From Onthophagus taurus (Eukaryota; Arthropoda; Insecta; Coleoptera; Scarabaeidae), in contig NC_091975.1 of the NCBI RefSeq assembly GCF_036711975.1, forward strand, positions 250,501 through 314,500: 64,000 bases of DNA, read 5' to 3'. The position numbers were made by a program, and so were the translations under genes. Under the pieces are notes generated by a model, which made no database searches, was not told the DNA's origin, and was given only the letters and a program-made list of their open reading frames with translations. Position 1 is the first letter of the stretch; every line of letters begins with the position of its first letter. Shown piece by piece: positions 5,301-64,000 of the stretch.

Positions 5301-8300
5301 ATATTTGGATTTGTCTGTTTTGAAGGTTTATAAATAACTTTACTTTCTGCAATTTGATTCTGCCGTTCTCGAGTTATTCGATTTTTTCTAGAAAAATCTG
5401 CTCCAGCGGACATTTGTTCAAAAAATCATAAAACACTCAATTTTTGAGATATCAATTTAGGATTCAGAACATGCTTAAACAACATGATGGAGTATGTTTT
5501 GGTGCCGAGAATGGCTGTCTAGATCGTTTGGTCACTTTACTATGACACGTTAAGTTTTCGAAGATTGGAAGCACCATAACTTCATTTTTTTAAATGGCAC
5601 CCCCCATATTTTATTACTTACAAGGGAAGTGTCACAACTGTGTCTCACCGATTTCGATGCAATTTGGTACAGTCATAGAATGGGCCAAAATAAGGTTCGC
5701 TCATTTTTTTATACGTGCGGTAAAAGCCCCTGGGGCGAGTTATAGGGGTTGAAAGTTTGGAGAAAAAGTACGTTTTCACTTATATTTTGAAAACGAAAAG
5801 TGCTATCAAAATTTGGTAAATTGTAACTGATATTCATTTTAAAAGAGCTTTCTTTTGATGTGTCACACATATAGCAGAGGGTTAAAAAGGGCGAACTACC
5901 CCTATTTTTTTGGAATTATTTAAAAACCACCCTATCGATTTTGGCGGCATTAAGTATACTTCTAGTGCGTTCAAAAATATTAGTTAAGGGTTTTTTCCCA
6001 TTCGCCCTAGATCAACCCCAGTGAAGTTACGGGGGTTAACATGTAAGCACTTTTCGTAAGAATGATGTGATAAAATTGTCAGGTATTTTGAAAATACTTT
6101 AAACAAAACCGTAAATTAGTCGCACAATAAAATGTTTAGTGTAAAATAAGGCATAATACACCATATAGGGGTTGTTGGGGTTATCCACCCCCTTAAAAAT
6201 TAATTCTATCCCGGGCGTTATTTGTCGATTACGGCGAAATTTGGTACTGTGTTTGTTTTATATTTGAAGTAAAAATTTTTGAAAATGGTTATAAGGGTTA
6301 CAAATTAGGGGTAGTTTTTTGTTTATACCTCGAAGATGAAAACTGCCATCGTAACTGTGGTATTGTTTTTTAAAAATCTATCTATCGATGTTCCACGAGG
6401 TAAACTACCCTCATTTTCTTTAAATAATAAATATAAAACTACTAGATAAATAAGATATTTTATTTATTTATGAGTTAAAAAGCAACTGACAAAAAAAATA
6501 GTTCAATATACCAAAGAAGTTTATTCTACATTACTAATTGACGTTTTTTATGTATTATATTAATTTTCAATATTAAATTTATTTTTATTCTACGTAGTGT
6601 TGGCAAAAATGAAAGTCGTGGAAAAAATGTTTTAAACATAAGGATTTTTTACACCATGCACATGTTATGACCGCTATATCCCCACAGATATCACACGTTG
6701 GCTTCTCACTCGAAAAGCAAACTTCCACGGGATTTTCAAAATGGTCTGGTCTCTCCTCTATATAGCCACTTGCAAACCATGCGTATTTAAAAACATTTAT
6801 AAACCGAGGGGAAGCCAACTGGTTATGCGTCAACGATTGCAATTTTAATATGTTATCCCTCTGATGTAAAAGGAATTTTATAGAAGATAGGAAAAAAGTG
6901 TTAAATTAATGAAAGAATAAATTTAACATTGAACATAAAAAACGTCAATTAGTAATGTAGAATAAACTTCTTTGGTATATTGAACTATTTTTTTTTGTCA
7001 GTTGCTTTTTAACTCATAAATAAATAAAATATCTTATTTATCTAGTAGTTTTATATTTATTATTTAAAGAAAATGAGGGTAGTTTACCTCGTGGAACATC
7101 GATAGATAGATTTTTAAAAAACAATACCACAGTTACGATGGCAGTTTTCATCTTCGAGGTATAAACAAAAAACTACCCCTAATTTGTAACCCTTATAACC
7201 ATTTTCAAAAATTTTTACTTCAAATATAAAACAAACACAGTACCAAATTTCGCCGTAATCAACAAGTAATGCCCGGGATAGAATTAATTTTTAAGGGGGT
7301 GGTTAACCCCAACCACCCCTAAATGGTGTATTATGCCTTATTTTACATTAAACATTTTATTGTGCGACTAATTTACGGTTTTGTTAAAGTATTTTCAAAA
7401 TACCTGACAATTTTATCACATCATTCTTACGAAAAGTGGTTACATGTTAACCCCCGTAACTTCGCTGGGGATGATCTAGAGCGAATGGGAAAAAACCCTT
7501 AACTAATATTTTTGAACGTGCTGGAAGTATACTTAATGCCGCCAAAATCGATAGGGTGGTTTTTAAATAATTCCAAAAAAATAGGGGTAGTTCGCCCTTC
7601 TTAACCCTCTGGTATATGTGTGATACATCAAAAGAAAGCTCTTTTAAAATGAATATCAGTTACAATTTACCAAATTTTGATAGCACTTTTCGTTTTCAAA
7701 ATATAAGTGAAAACGTACTTTTTCTCCAAACTTTCAACCCCTATAACTCGCCCCAGGGGCTTTTACCGCACGTATAAAAAAATGTGCGAACCTTATTTTG
7801 GCCCATTCTATGACTGTACCAAATTGCATCGAAATCGGTGAGACACAGTTGTGACACTTCCCTTGTTAGTCGTCTTCGGCGTCTCATTTTATATCTTTTA
7901 TATTCCATATGTCCTATGCCTAACATTAATAGTTTGAGAAATAATTAGGGTTTTTTGAAAAATGCTCACATATCATATCGATATTAACCTAGTGTCATTA
8001 TATCATATCATTACCATTAAAAATAGAGATGATATGATTTTTTGAAAATTTGACGTTATGTTGTTTTTGCAAATTTGACAGTGTTTTCTTTAGTACCGTT
8101 TTCCAGGAAATTTTATTAATATTATCATACAGTTTTTGTATTATATCATAAACTAGAGTCTTCAAGCTTTAATTTAATATATACATCATATCATTACCAT
8201 TAAAAATAGAGATGATATGATTTTTTGAAAATTTGACGTTATTTTGTTTTTGCAAATTTGACAGTGTTTTCTTTAGTAGCGTTTTTCAGGAAATTTTATT

Positions 8301-11017
8301 AAAATTATCGTACAGTTTTTATATCATATGATAAACTAGAGTCTTCAAGCTTTAATTTAATATATACATCATATCATTACCAATAAAAATAGAGATGATA
8401 TGATTTTTTGAAAATTTGACATTATTTTGGTTTTGCAAATTTGACAGTGTTTTCTTTAGTACCGTTTTTCAGGAAATTTTATTAATATTATCATACAGTT
8501 TTTATATCATATCATAAACTAGAGTCTTCAAGCTTTAATTTAATATATACATCATATCATTACCATTAAAAATAGAGATGATATGATTTTTTGAAAATTT
8601 GACGTTATTTTGTTTTTGCAAATTTGACAGTGTTTTCTTTAGTACCGTTTTTTAGGAAATTTTATTAATATTATCATACAGTTTTTATATCATATCGTAA
8701 ACTAGAGTCTTCAAGCTTTAATTTAACATATACATCATATCATTACCATCAAAAATAGAGATGATATGATTTTTTGAAAATTTGACGTTATTTTGTTTTT
8801 GCAAATTTGACAGTGTTTTCTTTAGTACCGTTTTTCAGAAATAAAAATAAAAAACAAAGAAATAAAATATGGGGGGTGCCATTTAAGAAAATGAAGTTAT
8901 GGTATTTCCAAATTTTGAAAAGTTAACGTGCCATAGTAAAGTGACCTAACGTTCTAGACAGCAGTTCTCGGCACCAAAACATACTCCATCATGTTGCTTA
9001 AGCATGTTCTCAATCCTAAATTGATATCCCAAAAATTGAGTGTTTTCTGATTTTTTGAAGAAATGTCTGCTGGAGCAGATTATTCTAGAAAAATTCAAAT
9101 AACTCGAGAACGACCGAATCAAATTGCAAAAAGTAAAGTTATTTATAAACCTTGACAACAGACAAATCCAAATATGTAAAAATATACAGGGTGTTCCATT
9201 TAAAAAAATAAAGTTGGTGGCGACTTCCGGTGTAACCGGAAGTGCTAGAAATATGAAAATATTTTAGATGAAGAGAACGTAATTGATAATACTTAAGTCT
9301 GCATTCTCAAATTTTTTGTTTGGCCAGAACCCCAGAAACTTTTAATGACCGGTCTCGCTAAGACACCCTGTATAACAGAACTGAGCAAACTGTTTCTATA
9401 GTACAATTTGGTGAGCCCTAAAATATTTTAGTCCATTTTATGTAAGCCTGAAGCATTTGCACAACCCATAAACGTCAGTCGTTGCTTCGAAATTTTTAAT
9501 CCAGGAGCAGTTTTTTCTGCTAATGGGACATAAGTTTTTTAGATCCTCTTTAAAAGGTTGTACTGCATCTGGGTGGGCCAACGGTGTTTAAATCTTTGCA
9601 GCCAACCATCACTGACCGTGAAAGGATCAATATTCAATTGCTTTGATAATGACAATGCCTTTAATTTCAGCATATTTCCAAAAATCCGTTCATAATAAAA
9701 CTGTTCAAGAAATGGATTTTTAAATGTAATCGAAGATCGAAAATTATTAACCTGATATAATTTTCTGTCTTTATGACTTCTCTGTCTTTATGCAATCTAT
9801 TCGACCTCGTCTGTGCGTTCGCAGTGTTTTCTGTTTAATATCCAACCTTTGAACTATCTTACAACAGCTCTCTATATGTTACATCAAAAAGTTACTGGGC
9901 AATTATTACTTAAATTGCTTTTTAATACACGTATCACAGAAAAAGAAATCTAAAAAAAATACATAAATCCAGTCAAACCTGCTCTGTTACATAATCTAAA
10001 TAATGCAAAATCATCGTAATATAAATTGATAGAAAATTGTACTCCATGAAAAATTACGAAACGAAACCTTTAAAAAATAATTTAACAAGTGTTTATAATA
10101 ACACTTATCTTGAGATTACAAAGAAATAACGCTAATTAATACAGCTTCTTTCATCATAATAATTAATTTAGCGGTTGTTTATGGCGTTTAAACGTAAAAA
10201 AATAATAATAACATAAAAATAAAGAGAATATACAAGTACATCTGGGACAAAGATATATAAATAAATTTTCGACAATAAACAAACTTAAAAGAAACCGTGA
10301 GATAATTTATCAAAAGATTTATTCTTAGAGGGATCAAATTGCTTTAAAATGATAAAAATTTGTTCATGTTCACCACCTGACTCGCATAACATCACACTCG
10401 AGTAACTCTTCACCTGAACATCCTGTAGGCCCTTTTCCGTTTTATAAACGAACCAAACCGTGAAATTATAAAACGTCTTAACTTCCTATGGGGACAAGAT
10501 TTTTAAACGTCAAACCGAAACTCGTAGGTTCCGAGGATTTAAGGTTGATGGAGTTTACAGAACATCCTGTTTTATATGTATACAATGAACTATTCGTGGG
10601 TAATAATTATTTTGTTTGGTTTTAAAAAATGTTTTTTGTTCGAGTAGATCAAATAAGACTTATTTCAACATCGAAGATTAGTTTAAACCGGTACAAGTCA
10701 CGATCAAAATCGTGAACAACACTCGAAGGATAACCAAAATTAAGTAATTGGAAAACATTAAGAGATAGATAATGACCTCTTGGCGTTTAATTTAAGATTA
10801 TGTACGGTTAGCAATCATAAAATGTACAACGTCAATTGATTTCTTTTTAATTTACAAAACTATTGGGATTTTAAAATATTATTTCCTTTACCTTATAACA
10901 ATTTTCGACGCATTTTGAAGAGATATCGGCGTCATAAATTTGCGCACCGAAGGCCGACACTATTATTGCAGTCACACACCAGTACGCGAATAAAATGTTC
11001 ATAATGATGATGACCAT
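2371..11017 (-). CDS. Secreted cysteine-containing peptide, 5' exons (partial gene)
   Basis: Two exons join in phase 0. Exon 1 is complement(10892..11017), 42 codons, with a hydrophobic signal peptide (MNILFAYWCVTAIIVSAFG) and a donor GTAAAG. Exon 2 is complement(2371..2424), 18 codons, with acceptor TTTCAG and donor GTAATT. Together they read a signal peptide, an acidic stretch, then KCVENCYK and GDICAYKTECHEQ. The gene must continue to the left of 2371 or out of the window, since no stop is reached. I do not recognise the family; four cysteines so far suggest a disulfide-rich secreted peptide. The 8.5 kb intron carries two other genes and several transposons. The exon 1 call is strong; the link to exon 2 rests on phase, splice sites and cysteine content only. 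Confidence 0.5.
2475..2645. repeat. Dispersed CTAG-rich short repeat
   Basis: Contains the words ACTAACACTAGACCTAG and GCTGCATAACAATTAAAAC followed by TAGAACTAG. The reverse complement of the same words occurs at about 20845-20910, and shorter forms at about 755-805 and 45695-45725. Non-coding; probably a fragment of an unnamed dispersed element. Confidence 0.55.
2682..2913. mobile_element. MITE, family A (TIR TACAGGGTGTCTCAGCG)
   Basis: A 232-bp element with ~50-bp terminal inverted repeats that begin TACAGGGTGTCTCAGCGAG and include GGTTCTGG at the inner end. It is flanked by TA/TATA. The middle has the motif ATACCGGAAGT. The right end has lost one base of the CCC in the TIR. The same TIRs bound the 4.2 kb element at 5134-9372, so this is a short internally deleted relative. 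Confidence 0.85.
3567..3861 (-). CDS. Kazal-type protease inhibitor, secreted (Vasotab-like), gene 1
   Basis: Two exons: complement(3816..3861) and complement(3567..3763). The product is 80 aa. A signal peptide (residues 1 to about 22, MNTTKLVITLSLLIS then VFSSIHG) is followed by one Kazal domain: CVKRC, then NPIC in the P-x-C position, FANMCVF matching the N-x-C turn, and two further cysteines (six in all). Kazal domains inhibit serine proteases through a loop near the second cysteine. The length and spacing fit small single-domain insect Kazal peptides such as Vasotab. The acceptor giving the correct phase is ATTATTAG at 3764-3770. The stop TAA overlaps an AATAAA signal. It lies 3' of a second Kazal gene in the same orientation, so a tandem duplicate is likely. 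Confidence 0.85.
3994..4264 (-). CDS. Kazal-type protease inhibitor, secreted (Vasotab-like), gene 2
   Basis: Two exons: complement(4234..4264) and complement(3994..4181), with a 52-bp intron, giving 72 aa. The start is MKMIILKIIT, which with exon 2 makes a clean signal peptide ending near CDLMS. One Kazal domain follows: CSQIC, RPICVAD, TFSNQCEF, NICLN and a final EGSC, six cysteines with normal Kazal spacing. Starting instead inside the second exon would give a poorer signal peptide and ignore the good donor GTAAGT. Poly(A) signal AATAAA lies on the minus strand near 3948-3953. About 130 bp upstream of gene 1, same strand; both sit inside the long intron of the 2371-11017 gene. Confidence 0.85.
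4265..5133. other. Upstream region of the Kazal pair; no gene recognised
   Basis: AT-rich, no supported reading frame. It must hold the promoter of Kazal gene 2 (minus strand), but I could not place a convincing TATA box or initiator. Confidence 0.4.
5592..6557. repeat. Inner left arm of the palindrome, matching 6939-7866
   Basis: The left-arm sequence from TTTAAATGGCACCCCCCATA to AATTGACGTTTTTTATG is found inverted at 6939-7866 with only scattered differences (by eye well above 90%). The match stops where the right arm has the 183-bp array insertion, then resumes beyond 8860. High arm identity means recent origin or arm-to-arm gene conversion. Confidence 0.75.
6585..6860 (-). CDS. Element-borne zinc-binding C-terminal fragment
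   Basis: Minus-strand open frame in the loop of the palindrome, about 91 residues. It starts with RDNILKLQSL and SPRFINVFKYAW, then an acidic stretch, then a Cys/His cluster: CDIC, seven residues, CAWC, four residues, C, then LKHFF and HFC near the C-terminus. The pattern CxxC-x7-CxxC-x4-C with trailing His/Cys looks like a small treble-clef or MYND/B-box-type zinc site. An acceptor-like CAG stands just before the RDN codon (6861-6862), and the frame also runs open upstream of it. I infer it is the last exon of a transposon protein. I do not recognise the family with certainty, and no catalytic residues are present here. Confidence 0.55.
   Translation of the reverse strand, partial: RDNILKLQSLTHNQLASPRFINVFKYAWFASGYIEERPDHFENPVEVCFSSEKPTCDICGDIAVITCAWCKKSLCLKHFFHDFHFCQHYVE
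8000..8838. repeat. 183-bp tandem repeat, about 4.6 units
   Basis: The phase word TTACCATTAAAAATAG recurs at 8011, 8194, 8377 (with CAAT), 8560 and 8743 (with CATC), an exact 183-bp period. The last unit is cut at about 8838. Each unit has the inverted words ATCATATC and GATATGAT around the TTACCATT core. The array lies only in the right arm of the palindromic element. Confidence 0.92.
9395..9835 (-). pseudogene. Tigger/pogo-type transposase remnant
   Basis: On the minus strand two pieces of a Tigger/Jerky-type transposase are readable. One (plus coordinates about 9540-9725) gives KLKALSLSKQLNIDPFTVSD then GWLQRFKHR, matching the CENP-B-type DNA-binding domain (the GWLxRFKxR signature). The other (about 9437-9540) gives TAPGLKISKQRLTFMGCANA followed by SGLHK, matching the start of the DDE domain (the RLT..CANA.G.HK signature). 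The linker between DNA-binding and DDE domains is missing and a stop separates the pieces, so this is an inactive relic. It abuts the right end of the palindromic element. Confidence 0.7.
9836..10891. other. No gene recognised (intronic)
   Basis: AT-rich sequence between the transposase remnant and exon 1 of the secreted peptide gene. No supported features. Confidence 0.4.
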
Positions 11018-35639: not shown

Positions 35640-38600
35640 TTTTCGCATAGTCTAAGTGTCAAAAAAGATGCTAATTCAAAAATTCCTGGAAACCGTGTTT
35701 ATTGAAATTAAGAAATAAAACTTATTTTAAATTGAAGCTTGAAGCTTTCTGTTTAAATCGATGTATAACAATCGATGGGTTGAATTAAAAAAATATTGAG
35801 AAAAAGAGTGTTGGGTTAAAACTAACATTTTCGAATAACCTAAAAGTGTCAAAAAAGATGCTAATTTAAAAATTCCTGGAGGCCGTATTTATTGAAATTG
35901 AGGAATGAAACTTATTTTAAATTAAAACTCAAAGCTTTCTTTTTAAAATGATGTATAATAATTGTTGGGTTGGATTGAAAAAATATTGACAAAAAACATG
36001 TTGAAACAAAACTTACATTTTCGTATAACCTAAGAGTGTCAAAAAAGATGCTATTTTAAAAATTCCTGGAAGCTGTATTTATTGAAGTTAAGAAATGAAA
36101 CTTATTTTAAATTAAAGCTCAAAGTTTTCTCTTTAAAATGATGTATAATAATTGTTGGGTTGGATTGGAAAAATATAGAGAAAAAATAAGTTGAAATAAA
36201 ACTTACATTTTCGTATAACCTAAGAGTGTCAAAAAAGATGCTATTTTAAAAATTCCTGGAAGCTGTATTTATTGAAGTTAAGGAATGAAACTTATTTTAA
36301 ATTAAAGCTCAAAGCTTTCTCTTTAAAATGATGTATAATAATTGTTGGGTTGGATTGGAAAAATATAGAGAAAAAAAAAGTTGAAATAAAACTTACATTT
36401 TCGTATAACCTAAGAGTGTCAAAAAAGATGCTATTTTAAAAATTCCTGGAAGCTGTATTTATTGAAGTTAAGGAATGAAACTTATTTTAAATTAAAGCTC
36501 AAAGTTTTCTCTTTAAAATGATGTATAATAATTGTTGGGTTGGATTGAAAAAATATTGACAAAAAACATGTTGAAACAAAACTTACATTTTCGTATAACC
36601 TAAGAGTGCCAAAAAAGATGCAAATTTAAAAATTTCTGGAAGCCGTATTTATTGAAATTTAAGAATCAGACTTATTCTATATTAAAGTTCAAGGCTTTCT
36701 CTTTAATGTATAATAATTGTTGGGTTGGATTGGAAAAATGTTGAAACAAAACTTACATTTTCGAATAACCTAAAAATGTTAAAAAGATGCTAATTTAAAA
36801 ATTCCTGTAAGCCGTATTTATTGAAATTAAGGAATGAAACTTATTTTAAATTAAAGCTCAAAGCTTTCTCTTTAAAATGATGTATAATAATTGTTGGGTT
36901 GGATTGGAAAAATATAGAGAAAAAAAAAGTTGAAATAAAACTTACATTTTCGTATAACCTAAGAGTATCAAAAAAGATGCTATTTTAAAAATTCCTGGAA
37001 GCTGTATTTATTGAAATGAAGGAATGGGACTTATTTTAAATTAAAGCTCAAAGTTTTCTCTTTAAAATGATGTATAATAATTGTTGGGTTGGATTGAAAA
37101 AATATTGACAAAAAACATGTTGAAACAAAACTTACATTTTCGTATAACCTAAGAGTGTCAAAAAAGATGCTATTTTAAAAATTCCTGGAAGCTGTATTTA
37201 TTGAAGTTAAGGAATGAAACTTATTTTAAATTAAAGCTCAAAGCTTTCTCTTTAAAATGATGTATAATAATTGTTGGGTTAGATTGGGAAAATATAGAGA
37301 AAAAAAAAGTTTAAATAAAACTTACATTTTCGTATAACCTAAGAGTGTTAAAAAAGATGCTATTTTAAAAATTCCTGAAAGCTGTATTTATTGAAGTTAA
37401 GGAATGAAACTTATTTTAAATTAAAGCTCAAAGTTTTCTCTTTAAAATGATGTATAATAATTGTTGGGTTGGATTAGAAAAATATAGAGAAAAAAAAAGT
37501 TGAAATAAAACTTACTTTTTCGTATAACCTAAGAGTGTCAAAAAAGATGCTATTTTAAAAATTCCTGGAAGCTGTATTTATTGAAGTTAAGGAATGAAAC
37601 TTATTTTAAATTAAAGCTCAAAGTTTTCTCTTTAAAATGATGTATAATAATTGTTGGGTTGGATTGAAAAAATATTGACAAAAAACATGTTGAAACAAAA
37701 CTTACATTTTCGTATAACCTAAGAGTGCCAAAAAAGATGCAAATTTAAAAATTTCTGGAAGCCGTATTTATTGAAATTTAGGAATGAGACTTATTCTATA
37801 TTAAAGCTCAAAGCTCTCTCTTTAAAATGATGTATAATAATTGTTGGGTTGGATTGGAAAAATATAGAGAAAAAAAAAGTTGAAATAAAACTTACATTTT
37901 CGTATAACCTAAGAGTGTCAAAAAAGATGCTATTTTAAAAATTCCTGGAAGCTGTATTTATTGAAGTTAAGGAATGAAACTTATTTTAAATTAAAGCTCA
38001 AAGTTTTCTCTTTAAAATGATGTATAATAATTGTTGGGTTGGATTGGAAAAATATAGAGAAAAAAAAAGTTGAAATAAAACTTACATTTTCGTATAACCT
38101 AAGAGTGTCAAAAAAGATGCTATTTTAAAAATTCCTGGAAGCTGTATTTATTGAAGTTAAGGAATGAAACTTATTTTAAATTAAAGCTCAAAGCTTTCTC
38201 TTTAAAATGATGTATAATAATTGTTGGGTTGGATTGGAAAAATATAAAGAAAAAAAATTTTGAAACAAAACTTACATTTTCGAATAACCTAAAAATGTTA
38301 AAAAGATGCTAATTTAAAAATTCCTGTAAGCCGTATTTATTGAAATTAAGGAATGAAACTTATTTTAAATTAAAGCTCAAAGTTTTCTCTTTAAAATGAT
38401 GTATAATAATTGTTGGGTTGGATTGGAAAAATATTGACAAAAAACATGTTGAAACAAAACTTACATTTTCGTATAACCTAAGAGTGCCAAAAAAGATGCA
38501 AATTTAAAAATTTCTGGAAGCCGTATTTATTGAAATTTAGGAATGAGACTTATTCTATATTAAAGCTCAAAGCTTTCTCTTTAAAATGATGTATAATAAT

Positions 38601-40490
38601 TGTTGGGTTGGATTGGAAAAATATAGAGAAAAAAAAAGTTGAAATAAAACTTACATTTTCGTATAACCTAAGAGTGTCAAAAAAGATGCTATTTTAAAAA
38701 TTCCTGGAAGCTGTATTTATTGAAGTTAAGGAATGAAACTTATTTTAAATTAAAGCTCAAAGCTTTCTCTTTAAAATGATGTATAATAATTGTTGGGTTG
38801 GATTGAAAAAATATTGACAAAAAACATGTTGAAACAAAACTTACATTTTCGTATAACCTAAGAGTGTCAAAAAAGATGCTATTTTAAAAATTCCTGGAAG
38901 CTGTATTTATTGAAGTTAAGGAATGAAACTTATTTTAAATTAAAGCTCAAAGTTTTCTCTTTAAAATGATGTATAATAATTGTTGGGTTGGATTGGAAAA
39001 ATATTGAGAAAAAAAAAGTTGAAATAAAACTTACATTTTCGTATAACCTAAGAGTGTCAAAAAAGATGATATTTTAAAAATTCCTGGAAGCTGTATTTAT
39101 TGAAGTTAAGGAATGAAACTTATTTTAAATTAAAGCTCAAAGCTTTCTCTTTAAAATGATGTATAATAATTGTTGGGTTGGATTGGAAAAATATAAAGAA
39201 AAAAAATTTTGAAACAAAACTTACATTTTCGAATAACCTAAAAATGTTAAAAAGATGCTAATTTAAAAATTCCTGTAAGCCGTATTTATTGAAATTAAGG
39301 AATGAAACTTATTTTAAATTAAAGCTCAAAGCTTTCTCTTTAAAATGATGTATAATAATTGTTGGGTTGGATTGGAAAAATATAGAGAAAAAAAAAGTTG
39401 AAATAAAACTTACATTTTCGTATAACCTAAGAGTGTCAAAAAAGATGCTAATTTAAAAATTCCTGGAAGCCGTATTTATTGAAATTTAGGAATGAGACTT
39501 ATTCTATATTAAAGCTCAAAGCTTTCTCTTTAAAATGATGTATAATAATTGTTGGGTTGGATTGGAAAAATATAGAGAAAAAAAAAGTTGAAATAAAACT
39601 TACATTTTCGTATAACCTAAGAGTGTCAAAAAAGATGCTATTTTAAAAATTCCTGGAAGCTGTATTTATTGAAATTAAGGAATGAGACTTATTCTAAATT
39701 AAAGCTCAAAGCTTTCTCTTTAAAATGATGTATAATAATTGTTGGGTTGGATTGGAAAAATATAGAGAAAAAAAAAGTTGAAATAAAACTTACATTTTCG
39801 TATAACCTAAGAGTGTCAAAAAAGATGCTATTTTAAAAATTCCTGGAAGCTGTATTTATTGAAATTAAGGAATGAGACTTATTCTAAATTAAAGCTCAAA
39901 GCTTTCTCTTTAAAATGATGTATAATAATTGATGGGTTGGATTGGAAAAATATTGAGAAAAAAAATGTTGAAACAAAACCTACATTTTCGTATAACCTAA
40001 AAATGTCAAAAAAGATGCTAATTTAAAAATTCCTGGAAGCCGTATTTATTGAAATTAAGGAATGAAACTTATTTTAAATTAAAGCTCAAAGCTTTCTCTT
40101 TAAAAGGATGTATAATAATTGTTGGGTTGGATTGGAAAAATATAGAGAAAAAAAAAGTTGAAATAAAACTTACATTTTCGTATAACCTAAGAGTGTCAAA
40201 AAAGATGCTATTTTAAAAATTCCTGGAAGCTGTATTTATTGAAGTTAAGGAATGAAACTTATTTTAAATTAAAGCTCAAAGTTTTCTCTTTAAAATGATG
40301 TATAATAATTGTTGGGTTGAATTGGAAAAATATTAAGAAAAAAAATGTTGAAACAACAATTACATTTAAAAGAGTCAAAAAAGATGCTAATTTAAAAATT
40401 CTTAGAAACCATGTTTATTGAAATTAAGGAATGAGACTTATTTTAAATTTAAGCTCAATGTTTTCTTTTTTAAAATGATCTGTAATAATC
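35640..40490. repeat. 190-bp satellite array, about 26 units
   Basis: The phase word around TAAGAGTGTCAAAAAAGATG recurs at 35652, 35841, 36031, 36221, 36411, 36601, 36771 and on to 40188 and 40368, mostly at exactly 190 bp (one unit is 170). The first two and the last units are clearly more diverged than the interior, the usual picture of unequal crossing-over. Interior units fall into several types by their A-rich linker and the gtgtc/gtgcc/atgtt start, which recur in a partly ordered way. Each unit has the word GTTGGGTTGGATTG. No coding frame. Confidence 0.97.
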
Positions 40491-52681: not shown

Positions 52682-55099
52682 ATGGGCACGGTCGACGATT
52701 GGAGAGGTTACGCAACGATTTGTCGTCTGTGCTTACAACGAGATGGTTTTATGCTCGGAATTTTCAATCATATACAAGGAAAAGAAAAGAGTATTTATAA
52801 AAAAATTATGGATTGTACAGCTTTAGAGGTAACTCGAATTTTTTTATTCGTTTAACGTAAATTTGTATTTTTTAAATATAATTAATCGATTTGAGGTTAA
52901 TTTAAACGCTTTTTTTATGATTTTAATTCATAATTTAAAGTTATATTTACCTTAATCACCCTGTATAACTTGGTTATTTCCGGTTCTGTAACACTTCACT
53001 TTCTTTCCACCATGTTTGTTGATTTTTGTTTGTATTGAACACGATGGCAACGACATTTTAGTTGGTTAAACGAATATTTTCTTTTATTATAAAATACACG
53101 TTTTCGCCCTTTTTTAAAACTAAATTTATTTCCCAACACTCATTTAAACGTAAATATAAACACTTGTTTGTTTATTGATTATTCTTAAACTGGTTTGTTG
53201 TTAGAAAATTGGCAACTTCGTGTTTATTGATTCGTTGTCATGGTAACGAAATTATTTGAATTCAAAAATTAAATCTTCCCCAAACTGTGATGTAATGTTG
53301 AAATTGCTGTTTTGATAAATGTAAGTTGATCGTTTCCGAGTTGTAATATTTTACCGTACTTTTCTCGTTTTCAGCGTAATTTGAATTCAAACAGATCAAA
53401 TGTCAAATTAAAATATGACATTTCAATTCGTCACCATGACAACCAATGTAACCTAGAAAAGCTTCCCGAATAATTTAAAATTATATTTATATTCTTGTAG
53501 ATATCGTTTGGAGATGGTTTACCAACAAGCATTTGCCACCGTTGCCTTTATAAAATAGAATTTTGCCTGGATTTCCGGCAACAATGTTTCGTATCAGATG
53601 CAACACTTCGTCAAATAAACGGTTTGAATTCAAAGCACCTGGAGAATGCGACATCCGGAGCTGGTTATATGATGGCAGAGATCCCACCAGGAAATGAGGA
53701 CGACGTTGTGATGGTCGTCGACCCACACGCCCTAGATTACGATTCCGAATATGATACAGACAACAATGATGTTGTTGAGAATGTTGAAAACGTTGAAAAT
53801 GGATTAGAAGTAAACGATTTGCAAGAATTTAGAAACGTTTTTTTATGTAAATATTGTGATAGGGCATTTACTGAAAAATCGGAGTGTAATTTGCATGAAA
53901 ACTCAGAACATAACGTAAATGTTCCATATGATTGTGCGGTTTGTGACATGACTTTCGCTGATAGGATTAATTATTCGGCACATTTAAAAAGTGTTCATCA
54001 AAACGACAAACCCTACAATTGCCCGCAATGTGAAAGAAATTTCTCAAGAAGATCAGATTTAAGAAAACACACCGTTGTCCACACAGGAATAAAACCATTC
54101 ACCTGTTCAATTTGTTATAAATCATTTTCAAGAAACACAAATTTATCGAAACACATGAGGATCCACTCAGGACAGAAACCTTTTGTATGTCAAAAGTGTC
54201 CGAAAACGTTCATATCGAAAGGAGATCTCACAAGACATACCATAATTCATTCAGGACAGAAACCATTTTCATGTAATTATTGTAATTTAAGTTTCGGACG
54301 TAGAGATAAATTACTTCGACACGAAAAAAAACATTATAACCAAGAATCGAAAGAGAATTCTGAAGATTTTTGTAATTTAAACTTAACGAATTTTGATGCA
54401 TTAGAAAATTCACAAACTATAAACGAAGAAAACGAAGAAAAATCTGAATGGCCAAGCTCTGAAAACATGGTAATTAATCTCGACCCATTCAATAATTACC
54501 ACAACACATCAGGAACCCCACCTCATCATCAACCCGAAATCAATTCCAACATAAATTTAAACTTACCGTTCAACGATGATTTTCCACAAACGCAAATTGA
54601 AAATTCACATGAAAGTTTTTCAATTTTAGATGGAGAAAATAGAGATCTCCCGCAAATTCCGGAACACATAACCGGAGATAGTTTTACAAATAGTCCGCCA
54701 AATACAAATTCGTTTGATGATACCGAAAAAGTGAAACGGTTTCCTTGTTATACATGTCATAAACGTTTCTCCAGTTTCGAGGGATTAAAAATTCATATGC
54801 AAATGCATTCCGGAAATAGACCCCATCATTGTAATATTTGTAATAAATCTTTTATGAGAAAACGCGAACTTGATAGGCATATTGCCACTCACACGGGCAT
54901 GAAACCTTTCAAATGTACGAGTTGTGATAAAAGGTTTGGAAGAAAGGATAAGTTAATTAGGCATATGAGGATACACGAGGTGAATCGGGAACATATTTGT
55001 GTGATTTGTGGGGCGACTTTTAATCGTAAGGATGGGTTAACTCATCATATGAAGACTCATGTTAAAGATGAGAGCGAAATTTTGACCAATAATATTTAA
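52682..55099 (+). CDS. ZAD-C2H2 zinc finger transcription factor
   Basis: Two exons: 52682..52828 and 53501..55099; 581 aa. The zinc-finger-associated domain (ZAD) spans about 12-85 and is split by the intron: CRLC (14-17) in exon 1 and CHRC (61-64) in exon 2 supply the four zinc ligands. An acidic linker (about 110-155) has a VENVENVENG repeat. Fingers 1-6 run about 163-325 with HTG/HSGQKPF linkers, a Ser/Asn/Pro-rich linker follows, and fingers 7-10 run about 460-570. ZAD mediates dimerisation in these insect-specific factors, many of which bind promoters or insulators. The upstream in-frame GTG at 52652 is not needed; ATG at 52682 fits ZAD starts. The ~670-bp intron contains a lone CACCCTGTA end near 52957. 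Ortholog not identified. Confidence 0.92.
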
Positions 55100-55309
55100 A
55101 AGAATTCAAAATTGATGTGAAATTTGGTTTTTTAAGGTTAAGTTTTTTTTTAGGTTAGGTTTTTTTTTGATAACTATTTTTTGAAATGATTAATATTTAT
55201 ATTAATAATCAAATAGTGAATGTATAATGTTTTTAATTCATTTATAATATTTTCAATAAAAAAAAACAGTTAAATAAAGAATTATAGTTTGTACAAAAAT
55301 TTTTAATTT

Positions 55310-58045
55310 AACCTCTAAATACACATTTAATTGATTTTTGAGCCATTTTATTTAGGTTATGTTTGTTTTTGAGGTTAGAATTATTGACATTTTTTTGTAA
55401 TCTTTAATTAACAACAAATTCCTGTAAAAAATTAGCTTTAATGCTTTAAAAAATTTACCTTACAGGTGAAAAAAATGTAAAAATATTTTACATCAAATAT
55501 AAACGATAATTTATTTTACAAATATGCATAAAAAGTTGCCTATCTATATAAATATATTAAAATTAATTTAAATATTTTTTGGAGCTGGTTTCCTTGTTAT
55601 ACCTGTTATAAACATATATTAATTTATAGTTTCGTGTCGCTTTTTAATATGATTTATTAATACATATCTATGATAAGCCTTAAAATCACAGAATCACACT
55701 CATCTTATTATCTATCTTATATCTCTTCTAATTTTCCTAAACATACTGGATGATAGATTAAATCACAATCGTAGCAAATTACGTATGTTTTAACTTGTAC
55801 TTACACATTTTAATTGATTCTCGACCCATTTTACTTAGGTTATGTTTGTTTTTGAGGTTAGAATTATTGACATTATTTTTTTGTAATCTTTAATTAACAA
55901 CAAATTCCTGTAAAAATTAGCTTTAATGCTTTAAAAAATTTACCTTACAGGCGAAAAAAATGTAAAAATATTTTACATCAAATATAAACGATAATTTATT
56001 TTACAAATATGCATAAAAAGTTGCCTATCTATATAAATATATTAAAATTAATTTAAATATTTTTTGGAGCTGGTTTCCTTGTTATACCTGTTATAAACAT
56101 GTATTAATTTATAGTTTCGTGTCGCTTTTTAATATGATTTATTAATACATATCTATGATAAGCCTTAAAATCACAGAATCACACTCATCTTATTATCTAT
56201 CTTATATCTCTTCTAATTTTCCTAAACATACTGGATGATAGATTAAATCACAATCGTAGCAAATTACGTATGTTTTAACTTGTACTTACACATTTTAATT
56301 GATTCTCGACCCATTTTACTTAGGTTATGTTTGTTTTTGAGGTTAGAATTATTGACATTATTTTTTTGTAATCTTTAATTAACAACAAATTCCTGTAAAA
56401 ATTAGCTTTAATGCTTTAAAAAAATTACCTTACAGGTGAAAAAAATGTAAAATATTTTACATCAAATATAAACGATAATTTATTTTACAAATATGCATAA
56501 AAAGTTGCCTATCTATATAAATATATTAAAATTAATTTAAATATTTTTTGGAGCTGGTTTCCTTGTTAAAAAAGTTATAAACATGTATTAATTTATAGTT
56601 TCGTGTCGCTTTTTAATATGATTTATTAATACATATCTATGATAAGCCTTAAAATCACAGAATCACACTCATCTTATTATCTATCTTATATCTCTTCTAA
56701 TTTTCCTAAACATACTGGATGATAGATTAAATCACAATCGTAGCAAATTACGTATGTTTTAACTTGTACTTACACATTTTAATTGATTCTCGACCCATTT
56801 TACTTAGGTTATGTTTGTTTTTGAGGTTAGAATTATTGACATTATTTTTTTGTAATCTTTAATTAACAACAAATTCCTGTAAAAATTAGCTTTAATGCTT
56901 TAAAAAATTTACCTTACAGGTGAAAAAAATGTAAAAATATTATACATCAAATATAAACGATAATTTATTTTACAAATATGCATAAAAAGTTGCCTATCTA
57001 TATAAATATATTAAAATTAATTATTCTTTTTAAATATTTGTTGGTTTCCTTGTTATACATGTTATAAACATGTATTAATTTATAGTTTCGTGTCGCTTTT
57101 TAATATGATTTATTAATACATATCTATGATAAGCCTTAAAATCACAGAATCACACTCATCTTATTATCTATGTTATATCTCTTCTAATTTTCCTAAACAT
57201 ACTGGATGATAGATTAAATCGCAATCGTAGCAAATTACGTATGTTTTAACTTGTACTTACACATTTTAATTGATTCTCGACCCATTTTACTTAGGTTATG
57301 TTTGTTTTTGAGGTTAGAATTATTGACATTATTTTTTTGTAATCTTTAATTAACAACAAATTCCTGTAAAAAATTAGCTTTAATGCTTTAAGAAACTTTA
57401 CCTTACAGGTGAAAAAATCTAAAAATATTATACATCAAATATAAACGATAATTTATTTTACAAATATGCATAAAAAGTTGCCTATCTATATAAATATATT
57501 AAAATTAATTTAAATATTTTTTGGAGCTGGCTTCCTTGTTATACCTGTTATAAACATGTATTAATTTATATTTTCGTGTCGCTTTTTAATATGATTTATT
57601 AATACATATCTATGATAAGCCTTAAAATCACAGAATCACACTCATCTTATTATCTATCTTATATCTCTTCTAATTTTCCTAAACATACTGGATGATAGAT
57701 TAAATCACAATCGTAGCAAATTACGTATGTTTTAACTTGTACTTACACATTTTAATTGATTCTCGACCCATTTTACTTAGGTTATGTTTGTTTTTGCGGT
57801 TAGAATTATTGACATTATTTTTTTGTAATCTTTAATTAACAACAAATTCCTGTAAAAATTAGCTTTAATGCTTTAAAAAATTTACCTTACAGGTGAAAAA
57901 AATGTAAAAATATTTTACATCAAATATAAACGATAATTTATTTTACAAATACGCATAAAAAGTTGCCTATCTATATAAATATATTAAAATTAATTTAAAT
58001 ATTTTTTGGGGCTGGTTTCCTTGTTATACATGTTATAAACATGTA
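55310..58045 (-). pseudogene. Tandem array of decayed copies (~485 bp unit) of the adjacent PHD-like/C2H2 gene
   Basis: The word TAGGTTATGTTTG recurs at 55353, 55836, 56321, 56805, 57292 and 57778, a 483-487-bp period, and once more at 58430 in front of the intact gene. Minus-strand gene bodies lie at about 55610-55845, 56095-56330, 56580-56815, 57066-57302 and 57552-57788. Each keeps the start region (ATGGGTCGAGAATC), the CYDCDLIYHPVC coding part and the C2H2 end, but has lost 15 bp near the start, most of exon 1's 3' part plus the intron, and one base in the finger. Every copy shares these same changes, so one decayed copy was amplified. Between gene bodies is a diverged copy of the gene's own upstream region. 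Confidence 0.85.
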
Positions 58046-58423
58046 TTAATTTATAGTTTCGTGTCGCTTTTTAATATGATTTATTAATACATATCTATGA
58101 TAAGCCTTAAAATCACAGAAATCACACTCATATCTTGATTTTTTGTTTTCGTTTGGATTTTCTGCAACTTCATTTTTAAATAATAATAAAAATATGCCTT
58201 TTATGTTTTATTTACCTATATTTTCTGTTTGAGAGGACTTTGAAGTAGAAATATTTAAAGTTGGCTTCGAGCAGCAAAATAATTTCCCGGTTGAATCTAT
58301 AAAGAAACCTTCTAATTTTCCTAAACATACTGGATGATAGATTAAATCACAATCGTAGCAAATTACGTATGTTTTAACTTGTTTTAAACATGTATTACAC
58401 ATTTTAATTGATTCTCGAACCAT
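58046..58423 (-). CDS. Small PHD-like plus C2H2 zinc finger protein
   Basis: Two exons: complement(58216..58423) and complement(58046..58161), 54-bp intron (acceptor TTGCAG); 107 aa. N-terminus: CNTC, CYDC, HPVC and a later CC pair, the Cys4-His-Cys3 spacing of a short PHD-like finger (KTYVICYDCDLIYHPVCLG). C-terminus: YECDFCDFKAYHRYVLINHI then KKRH, one C2H2 finger. The codons have not decayed and the splice joins in phase, which supports a real gene, but it is small and I know no family with this pair. It sits at the end of an array of decayed copies of itself. Possibly a nuclear histone- or DNA-binding peptide; function is a guess. Confidence 0.62.
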
Positions 58424-58660
58424 TTTACTTAGGTTATGTTTGTTTTTGAGGTTAGAATTATTAATATTAATTTTTTTAAAATCTTTTGTGTCTTGTTGAT
58501 ATTAATTAATTAATAACAAATTCTTGTAAGAAGTTGTTTTACTAATACTATAAAGAAATTTTACCTTTTATAAAGAAAATAAATTTTAATATGATAAATG
58601 ATAACCAACTTAACACATGTGTGGAAAATGTTGCCTATCTATCAAAAAAATTTTTTTAAT
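58424..58660 (-). promoter_or_regulatory. Upstream region of the PHD-like/C2H2 gene
   Basis: This stretch has diverged counterparts in each unit of the tandem array (shared words GAGGTTAGAATTATT, AACAAATTC and GTTGCCTATCTAT). That it was copied along with the gene suggests the amplified unit included a promoter. Confidence 0.45.
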
Positions 58661-58739
58661 TCTTTTTATATCTTAAATGTTAAATCTTTTAATACTTGTT
58701 AATTGATTAATTTTTTTGTCGTTTTTATTTAAGTGTTTA

Positions 58740-59313
58740 CTTAGAGTTGGATTTTCGGTTGAATGAAACATTGCGGTACATTGCGGATCGCGTAGTTTCC
58801 GTTCATTAGCACGATAAAATAGTGAACGGCACCACCACTACGATGGAACGTGGTTTCGTTCTCTTCGTCGGCTCCGGTTTTCCTCTTCCTACGTTTACGG
58901 ATGTTGCGTTTTCCATCCTTTTTCGACGACGTTTCAAAGCCGGCACGGCACTAAAGGACCGAAAACCAGGCCCTCCTAAAACAACGTTCAGTTGGTCGTC
59001 GCGCAGCGAGCATTTCGTTCAAAGAAAAATTTAGAAATAAAAAAATTTGTTGATTAATAAATAAGTGGGAAATAAATTAATTTTAAAAAAATGACATTTA
59101 TTTTGACAGATAATTTGAAGGTTAATTTTTTTTAAAACCTTTAAAAACCCGTTATAGTTTAAATATTTACAAAAAAAAACGGTTAAATGTGAAACGAACT
59201 GCTTTTTCTTTTTCTTCACGTGTTCTTTAATTTTATTTTCGGTGGTGAAAATCGAAAAAAAAATTAATAATTTCCATTTTGGGTTGTTTCTTATAATTTT
59301 TATATTTGTTTAG
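58740..59313 (+). promoter_or_regulatory. Candidate promoter and noncoding first exon of a gene to the right
   Basis: A GC-rich block (58740-59030) contains GTTCAGTTGGTCGTCGC at about 58986, with the arthropod initiator TCAGTT. About 325 bp downstream a strong donor TTTAG/GTAAGT lies at 59314. No start codon with a domain follows, so this would be a leader exon whose intron contains the 181-bp array. Confidence 0.4.
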
Positions 59314-60299: not shown

Positions 60300-63200
60300 A
60301 AGAGGTTAACATAAACTTAATCATATCTATTTTATTTATAACAACTAAGAAATGATTTTGATATCAAATTAAAGTTTGAAATCTCTTCTTTAAAACGACA
60401 TAATTTATTTCATTCATTAATTAGAAAAATTTCGGAGAAAAACCCTTTCAATAAAAAGAGGTTAGGATTGACGACATTTTTTTAACATAAACTTAAAAAA
60501 ATCATATCTATTTTATTTATAACAACTAAGAAATGATTTTGATATCAAATTAAAGCTTGAAATCTCTTCTTTAAGACGACATAATTTATTTCATTCATTA
60601 ATTAGAAAAATTTCGGAGAAAAACCCTTTAAATAAAAAGAGGTTAGGATTGACGACATTTTTTTTAGCATAAACTTAAAAAAATCATATCTATTTTATTT
60701 ATAACAACTAAGAAATGATTTTGATATCAAATTAAAGCTTGAAATCTCTTCTTTAAGACGACATAATTTATTTCATTCATTAATTAGAAAAATTTCGGAG
60801 AAAAACCCTTTCAATAAAAAGAGGTTAGGATTGACGACATTTTTTTAGCATAAACTTAAAAAAATCATATCTATTTTATTTATAACAACTAAGAAATGAT
60901 TTTGATATCAAATTAAAGCTTGAAATCTCTTCTTTAAGACGACATAATTTATTTCATTCATTAATTAGAAAAATTTCGGAGAAAAACCCTTTAAATAAAA
61001 AGAGGTTAGGATTGACGACATTTTTTTTAGCATAAACTTAAAAAGTCATATCTATTTTATTTATAACAACTAAGAAATGATTTTGATATCAAATTAAAGC
61101 TTGAAATCTCTTCTTTAAGACGACATAATTTATTTCATTCATTAATTAGAAAAATTTCGGAGAAAAACCCTTTAAATAAAAAGAGGTTAGGATTGACGAC
61201 ATTTTTTTTAGCATAAACTTAAAAAAATCATATCTATTTTATTTATAATAACTAAGAAATGATTTTGATATCAAATTAAAGCTTGAAATCTCTTCTTTAA
61301 GACGACATAATTTATTTCATTCATTAATTAGAAAAATTTCGGAGAAAAACCCTTTAAATAAAAAGAGGTTAGGATTGACGACATTTTTTTTAGCATAAAC
61401 TTAAAAAAGTCATTTCTATTTTATTTATAACAACTAAGAAATGATTTTGATATCAAATTAAAGCTTGAAATCTCTTCTTTAAGACGACATAATTTATTTC
61501 ATTCATTAATTAGAAAAATTTCGGAGAAAAACCCTTTAAATAAAAAGAGGTTAGGATTGACGACATTTTTTTTAGCATAAACTTAAAAAAATCATATCTA
61601 TTTTATTTATAACAACTAAGAAATGATTTTGATATCAAATTAAAGCTTGAAATCTCTTCTTTAAGACGACATAATTTATTTCATTCATTAATTAGAAAAA
61701 TTTCGGAGAAAAACCCTTTAAATAAAAAGAGGTTAGGATTGACGACATTTTTTTAGCATAAACTTAAAAAAATCATATCTATTTTATTTATAACAACTAA
61801 GAAATGATTTTGATATCAAATTAAAGCTTGAAATCTCTTCTTTAAGACGACATAATTTATTTCATTCATTAATTAGAAAAATTTCGGAGAAAAACCCTTT
61901 AAATAAAAAGAGGTTAGGATTGACGACATTTTTTTAGCATAAACTTAAAAAAATCATATCTATTTTATTTATAACAACTAAGAAATGATTTTGATATCAA
62001 ATTAAAGCTTGAAATCTCTTCTTTAAGACGACATAATTTATTTCATTCATTAATTAGAAAAATTTCGGAGAAAAACCCTTTAAATAAAAAGAGGTTAGGA
62101 TTGACGACATTTTTTTTAGCATAAACTTAAAAAAATCATATCTATTTTATTTATAACAACTAAGAAATGATTTTGATATCAAATTAAAGCTTGAAATCTC
62201 TTCTTTAAGACGACATAATTTATTTCATTCATTAATTAGAAAAATTTCGGAGAAAAACCCTTTAAATAAAAAGAGGTTAGGATTGACGACATTTTTTTTA
62301 GCATAAACTTAAAAAAATCATATCTATTTTATTTATAACAACTAAGAAATGATTTTGATATCAAATTAAAGCTTGAAATCTCTTCTTTAAGACGACATAA
62401 TTTATTTCCTTCATTAATTAGAAAAATTTCGGAGAAAAACCCTTTAAATAAAAAGAGGTTAGGATTGACGACATTTTTTTTAGCATAAACTTAAAAAAGT
62501 CATTTCTATTTTATTTATAACAACTAAGAAATGATTTTGATATCAAATTAAAGCTTGAAATCTCTTCTTTAAGACGACATAATTTATTTCATTCATTAAT
62601 TAGAAAAATTTCGGAGAAAAACCCTTTAAATAAAAAGAGGTTAGGATTGACGACATTTTTTTTAGCATAAACTTAAAAAATCATATCTATTTTATTTATA
62701 ACAACTAAGAAATGATTTTGACATCAAATTAAAGTTTGAAATCTCTTCTTTAAGACGACATAATTTATTTCATTCATTAATTAGAAAAATTTCGGAGAAA
62801 AACCCTTTAAATAAAAAGAGGTTAGGATTGACGACATTTTTTTAGCATAAACTTAAAAAAGTCATTTCTATTTTATTTATAAGAACTAAGAAACGATTTT
62901 GATATCAAATTAAAGCTTGAAATCTCTTCTTTAAGACGACATAATTTATTTCATTCATTAATTAGAAAAATTTCGGAGAAAAACCCTTTCAATAAAAAGA
63001 GGTTAGGATTGACGACATTTTTTTTAGCATAAACTTAAAAAAATCATATCTATTTTATTTATAACAACTAAGAAATGATTTTGATATCAAATTAAAGCTT
63101 GAAATCTCTTCTTTAAGACGACATAATTTATTTCATTCATTAATTAGAAAAATTTCGGAGAAAAACCCTTTAAATAAAAAGAGGTTAGGATTGACGACAT

Positions 63201-64000
63201 TTTTTTAGCATAAACTTAAAAAAATCATATCTATTTTATTTATAACAACTAAGAAATGATTTTGATATCAAATTAAAGCTTGAAATCTCTTCTTTAAGAC
63301 GACATAATTTATTTCATTCATTAATTAGAAAAATTTCGGAGAAAAACCCTTTAAATAAAAAGAGGTTAGGATTGACGACATTTTTTTAGCATAAACTTAA
63401 AAAAATCATATCTATTTTATTTATAACAACTAAGAAATGATTTTGATATCAAATTAAAGCTTGAAATCTCTTCTTTAAGACGACATAATTTATTTCATTC
63501 ATTAATTAGAAAAATTTCGGAGAAAAACCCTTTAAATAAAAAGAGGTTAGGATTGACGACATTTTTTTAGCATAAACTTAAAAAAATCATATCTATTTTA
63601 TTTATAACAACTAAGAAATGATTTTGATATCAAATTAAAGCTTGAAATCTCTTCTTTAAGACGACATAATTTATTTCATTCATTAATTAGAAAAATTTCG
63701 GAGAAAAACCCTTTAAATAAAAAGAGGTTAGGATTGACGACATTTTTTTTAGCATAAACTTAAAAAAGTCATTTCTATTTTATTTATAACAACTAAGAAA
63801 TGATTTTGATATCAAATTAAAGCTTGAAATCTCTTCTTTAAGACGACATAATTTATTTCATTCATTAATTAGAAAAATTTCGGAGAAAAACCCTTTAAAT
63901 AAAAAGAGGTTAGGATTGACGACATTTTTTTTAGCATAAACTTAAAAAAATCATATCTATTTTATTTATAACAACTAAGAAATGATTTTGATATCAAATT
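60300..64000. repeat. 181-bp satellite array, more than 20 units, continues past the window
   Basis: The phase word CATATCTATTTTATTT recurs at 60322, 60503, 60684, 60866 and on every 181-182 bp to the right edge. Units are nearly identical; differences are mostly in the length of one T-run and one A-run, and a CATTTCTATT variant at about 61408, 62492, 62851 and 63758, spaced by multiples of the unit. Each unit has GGTTAGGATTGACGACATTT and AAATTTCGGAGAAAAACCC. No coding frame. Confidence 0.97.

Follow-up and report, generated by a model that had tools for sequence, protein, structure and literature searches.

A predicted two-exon gene lies beside five decayed units

We analyzed a window of 64,000 nucleotides of Onthophagus taurus DNA (250-314 kb of the 17.4-Mb contig C10, in a 290.8-Mb genome of 33 contigs). 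The window contains a small gene, here called gene B, and next to it an array of decayed units. Gene B (58423-58046, minus strand) has two exons and 107 codons, and its frame is open throughout. Exon 1 (58216-58423) encodes an N-terminal Cys/His finger, and exon 2 (58046-58161) encodes a single C2H2-type finger followed by the stop codon. The intron of the predicted model (58162-58215) is 54 bp long, begins and ends with GT-AG, and is a phase-1 intron. The upstream region of gene B, pB (58424-58668, minus strand), is 67-69% identical to the upstream region found in the units. Directly 3' of gene B is an upstream region of the unit type, pA (57767-58045, minus strand), that goes with the decayed copy beneath it.

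All five units have the same orientation as gene B. Cut at the start codon, they are arranged head-to-tail on the minus strand from 55342 to 57766: unit 1 (55342-55824), unit 2 (55825-56309), unit 3 (56310-56793), unit 4 (56794-57280), and unit 5 (57281-57766), with lengths of 483, 485, 484, 487, and 486 bp, respectively. Each unit consists of ~275 bp of upstream DNA (pA) and a decayed remnant of the gene. The cut point of unit 1 falls within codon 2 of an additional, truncated copy at the end of the array, and unit 4 has a private small rearrangement in pA. TRF reported a period of 485 (55320-58131, 5.8 copies, 96% matches). Pairs of units are 97.5-99.2% identical (gap columns excluded).

We found that the units share their lesions. 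In 5/5 units there is a loss of ~10 bp, a large internal loss with ~20 bp of filler, and a loss of 1 bp. Compared to the intact relative these lesions are disabling: the ~10 bp and 1 bp losses shift the frame, and the large deletion runs from the last part of exon 1 through the whole intron into the first part of exon 2. No ORF of at least 30 codons (ATG to stop) was found on either strand in 55300-58040, and stops are present inside the array matches of a six-frame search. A search for the template of the filler within 58000-59000 gave no match beyond 8 bases. The original prediction had described five ~485-bp units with identical internal losses beside an intact two-exon gene (58046-58423), and had taken the shared losses to mean that a single broken copy was amplified or homogenized next to its intact relative. 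Both descriptions agree with the three lesions in all five units.

The units are head-to-tail duplicates that carry upstream DNA, unlike retrocopies. The gene B intron falls in the part that is deleted from the units, and its absence there says nothing about retrocopying. An open frame of 491 aa with several C2H2 fingers (53624-55099, plus strand) lies immediately to the left of the array.

Gene B has two open paralogs

A six-frame search of the genome with gene B gave 22 matches at E ≤10, 12 of them at its own locus. Two open paralogs were found, one at C6:7873597 (39% identity over 72 residues, E 1.8e-11) and one at C10:1723978 (35% identity, E 8.8e-7). Both have an N-terminal finger of the gene B type and a C2H2 exon. 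Both paralogs keep residues C9, C12, C22, C25, H30, C33, C50, and C51 of the gene B finger unchanged. The deleted parts of the units include C12, C50, and C51, and because these cysteines are invariant in both paralogs, the units are the derived form.

A phase-1 intron between the finger and the C2H2 exon is possible in each paralog (55 bp at C6:7873597 and 54 bp at C10:1723978), picked among several possible introns for likeness to that of gene B. The match in length and phase is suggestive of a common gene structure, short of proof. By eye, each paralog has two C2H2 fingers compared to one in gene B, and the C2H2 histidines do not fall in the same columns of the alignment. Based on the two open paralogs with a common N-terminal finger and C2H2 exon, we suggest that gene B is probably a real gene.

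Differences at codon positions 1, 2, and 3 (43 codons in each comparison with gene B) numbered 13, 17, and 29 against the C6 paralog (p 0.0007) and 14, 19, and 21 against the C10 paralog (p 0.26). The two paralogs differ from each other at 14, 9, and 14 sites. These counts indicate constraint on gene B clearly in the comparison with the C6 paralog only, and not clearly in that with the C10 paralog.

The gene had been predicted to be "PHD-like/C2H2". The first part of this name is only descriptive, as the PHD-finger model PF00628 matched gene B at E 0.15 and 12.5 bits, below the Pfam cut-off of 24. For the second part, C-x2-C-x12-H-x3/4-H spacing can be picked out by eye, and the listed C2H2 models scored below their cut-offs (best 18 bits against 27). 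The C1 domain (PF00130) matched at E 0.00078 and 19.7 bits, also below its Pfam cut-off (26.5). NCBIfam assigned no family to gene B (2 matches, far under cut-off), and the PDB gave no solved relative (3 weak matches, E 0.17-0.56).

A weaker match in the genome, at C6:22854809 (E 2.8e-6), is ~5 kb from frames that resemble retrotransposon pol by eye. In this region (C6:22845000-22856958) a gene B-like finger opens a frame near the pol-like frames (by eye), hinting that the gene B type of finger may occur in mobile elements too.

Coding and upstream parts of the units differ in their divergence from gene B

We found that the units are nearly identical to gene B in their coding parts. In three coding blocks, a comparison that leaves out columns adjoining deletions, the five units have 2 substitutions in 910 compared sites, and the majority sequence of the units does not differ from gene B (0/182 sites). 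With filler and junction columns counted, there are 10-12 coding differences per unit. Codon 2, just beyond the three blocks, has one difference from gene B that is fixed in 5/5 units.

In contrast to the coding blocks, the pA consensus differs from pB at 76/261 compared sites (~70% identity). The difference between 76/261 upstream and 0/182 coding has p ~3e-20 if sites are taken as independent, although several of the differences may each be one multi-base event. Directly 5' of the ATG, the majority sequence of the units and gene B share an identical run of 39 bp. At 70% identity, the probability of 39/40 matching columns here is ~1e-5, for a stretch chosen post hoc. The claim that each unit contains a copy of the gene's upstream region fits the 39-bp run at the ATG; more than ~40 bp from the ATG, pA is only ~70% identical to pB.

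A 13-bp block conserved between pA and pB was considered as a promoter element and set aside; by our estimate such a block is not unlikely by chance at ~70% identity. The 7 upstream regions of this locus are the only places in the window that have it, and it is absent from the two paralog loci.

Among the units themselves, 3/206 coding columns are variable compared to 18/271 columns in pA (p 0.006). We considered continuing conversion from gene B as the cause and set it aside: p was 0.11 once multi-base changes were taken as single events (12, by eye).

With coding parts almost identical and upstream parts 30% diverged, one plain duplication of the gene and its promoter is strongly disfavored. 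A modified version of this history would have a recent tandem duplication of the gene with its own upstream region, and an upstream region of gene B that was later replaced or is fast evolving. It needs fewer steps and would explain why the coding parts are almost identical. However, pA and pB were alignable over ~240-250 bp at 67-69% in the genome search, which favors an ancient shared origin over replacement, and 30% divergence adjoining 0-1% would be a very uneven outcome of a single event. We consider this history unlikely.

The 485-bp unit is confined to one locus

DNA searches of the genome, in which very common words were skipped, found this locus only, with 11 matches for gene B, 9 for the unit, and 7 for pB. 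The original prediction would not have held if the unit were an ordinary satellite, present widely through the genome and with no link to gene B. We looked for such a spread, and the matches were confined to this locus. Around the paralogs we found no array like the 485-bp one at locus L030, and two unrelated short repeats at locus L029.

The neighboring array of 181/363-bp repeats (60319-64000, reaching the end of the window) belongs to a widespread satellite, unlike the 485-bp unit. Used as a query, the 181-bp array gave at least 273 matches (39/432 candidates scored). Among the matches listed, which include none of the window's own copies, its relatives are on at least 8 contigs (C1, C3, C5, C6, C7, C10, C11, and C15) and are 67-95% identical, the highest values being for short matches.

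Satellite DNA has many copies, usually at several loci. The array next to gene B has five units at one locus, and calling it a satellite, as had been done, is not warranted. It might still be a young satellite at birth, with a longer expansion present in other individuals or in sequence that the assembly lacks. The units are homogeneous and head-to-tail with a 485 bp period, and arrays of a widespread satellite are present in the same window. Against this, there are only five units in one place in a 291-Mb assembly and no sign here of continuing growth, and we regard a satellite at birth as improbable.

There are other repeats in the window and at contig ends. A 190-bp array (35655-40489, ~25.6 copies) has a unit size near the 181-bp one, and a 183-bp repeat (8002-8842) has 4.6 copies at 96%. 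A 153-bp satellite array of at least 27.6 copies takes up the final 4,230 bases at the right end of C10. Telomere-like TTGGG repeats are found at the right end of C6, in the 200 bases at either end of its final 3 kb; the available part of one report describes this motif from some scarabaeoid beetles (PMC8233369).

A proposed history of the array

We favor the interpretation that the array consists of amplified unprocessed tandem pseudogene copies of one broken version of the gene, with a probability of roughly 0.8. We infer the following sequence of events and mode of recombination. There would have been an old head-to-tail pair of the small gene, with upstream regions that diverged. Close to the start codon, a recent exchange by unequal crossover or by gene conversion would have placed the gene B coding part behind pA of the partner. 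The hybrid copy would then have decayed by the ~10 bp loss, the large deletion with filler, and the 1-bp deletion. Lastly, unequal crossing-over, alone or together with conversion, would have raised the resulting ~485-bp unit to five copies. The old tandem pair and the exchange near the start codon, both proposed from one assembly, are in our judgment slightly better than an even bet. They would account for the contrast between coding and upstream divergence and also for the diverged terminal copy.

The terminal truncated copy (55320-55346, minus strand) contains 27 bp from the start codon onward. Compared to gene B and to unit 1, it has 1 deletion and is substituted at 3 of 27 compared sites, and then breaks off. 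The pA of this leftmost copy is unit-like (2/271 sites differ), and the difference between its coding and pA divergence has p ~0.005 (computed as 3/26). The terminal copy is possibly a relic of the older tandem partner. Plain decay at the edge of the array, or patchy conversion, would also fit this pattern: the relic is short (27 bp), and immediately 5' of its ATG the sequence resembles both gene B and the units.

Under the interpretation of amplified pseudogene copies, the array most likely has no function and is a dead copy that was multiplied. A different possibility is that the array is a source of regulatory RNA, with the units transcribed and giving rise to small RNAs or a decoy against gene B, as in the Su(Ste)/Stellate system. 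The remnants are almost identical to gene B over ~180 bp, so that RNAs from them would match, and an upstream region is kept in each unit. However, pA is only ~70% identical to gene B's own upstream region. In addition, the units all run in the orientation of gene B, so that an antisense transcript would have to start from another promoter, which we did not see. We consider a regulatory role very unlikely. We give almost no credence to the more elaborate proposal of a battery of sense pseudogenes with hybrid promoters and ongoing conversion that tunes gene B via sense or small RNAs and represents the beginning of a transition from gene to satellite.

Amplified copies of a broken gene would nonetheless be instructive. 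An intact gene, a possible relic of its older partner, and five dead homogeneous units adjoin one another, and together they would show a short gene turning into a tandem repeat. The locus would be of wider importance only if RNA data showed the units acting on gene B.

Comparison with known systems

Unprocessed tandem pseudogene arrays have head-to-tail copies beside an intact relative, with upstream DNA, shared lesions, and homogeneous units. The array next to gene B is like these: its copies are head-to-tail, it has an intact neighbor, it includes upstream DNA, and its units have shared lesions and high homogeneity. It is unlike the usual arrays of this kind in its very short unit (485 bp) and in its mosaic of near-identical coding and diverged upstream DNA. 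Neither gene B nor the array was reported in the literature on gene-derived tandem arrays covered by our search, which took in a minority of the subscription journals.

The array is also like the low-copy satellite DNAs of the beetle Tribolium castaneum (PMC10218199) in being a low-copy tandem repeat in an insect. The terms "pseudogene", "exon", and "gene duplication" do not occur in that text, and we found no gene-derived case in the available part of it. The Sdic tandem gene family of Drosophila melanogaster impacts sperm competition, according to the part of the report available (PMC7475035). Like Sdic, the array appears to be a young tandem family; unlike Sdic, its units are broken copies.

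Su(Ste) and AT-chX of Drosophila are gene-derived repeats with small RNAs, as described in the available part of PMC7874207. There, AT-chX piRNAs of 76% similarity failed to repress vasa. The identity of the units to gene B is far higher than this, yet the units are sense-oriented.

The closest parallels in the same text are PCKR and Su(Ste)-Stellate of D. melanogaster, which include damaged gene copies that arose from gene duplication (PMC7874207). A total of 122 PCKR pseudogenes are on the Y chromosome, and a piRNA role is documented for Su(Ste) (PMC7874207). The array described here differs from these in having five local copies, in the orientation of gene B, that are known from sequence alone. 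It resembles them in containing damaged copies of a duplicated gene, and a chimeric promoter-gene copy, similar in kind to the hybrid that we propose, was suggested as an intermediate in their history (PMC7874207).
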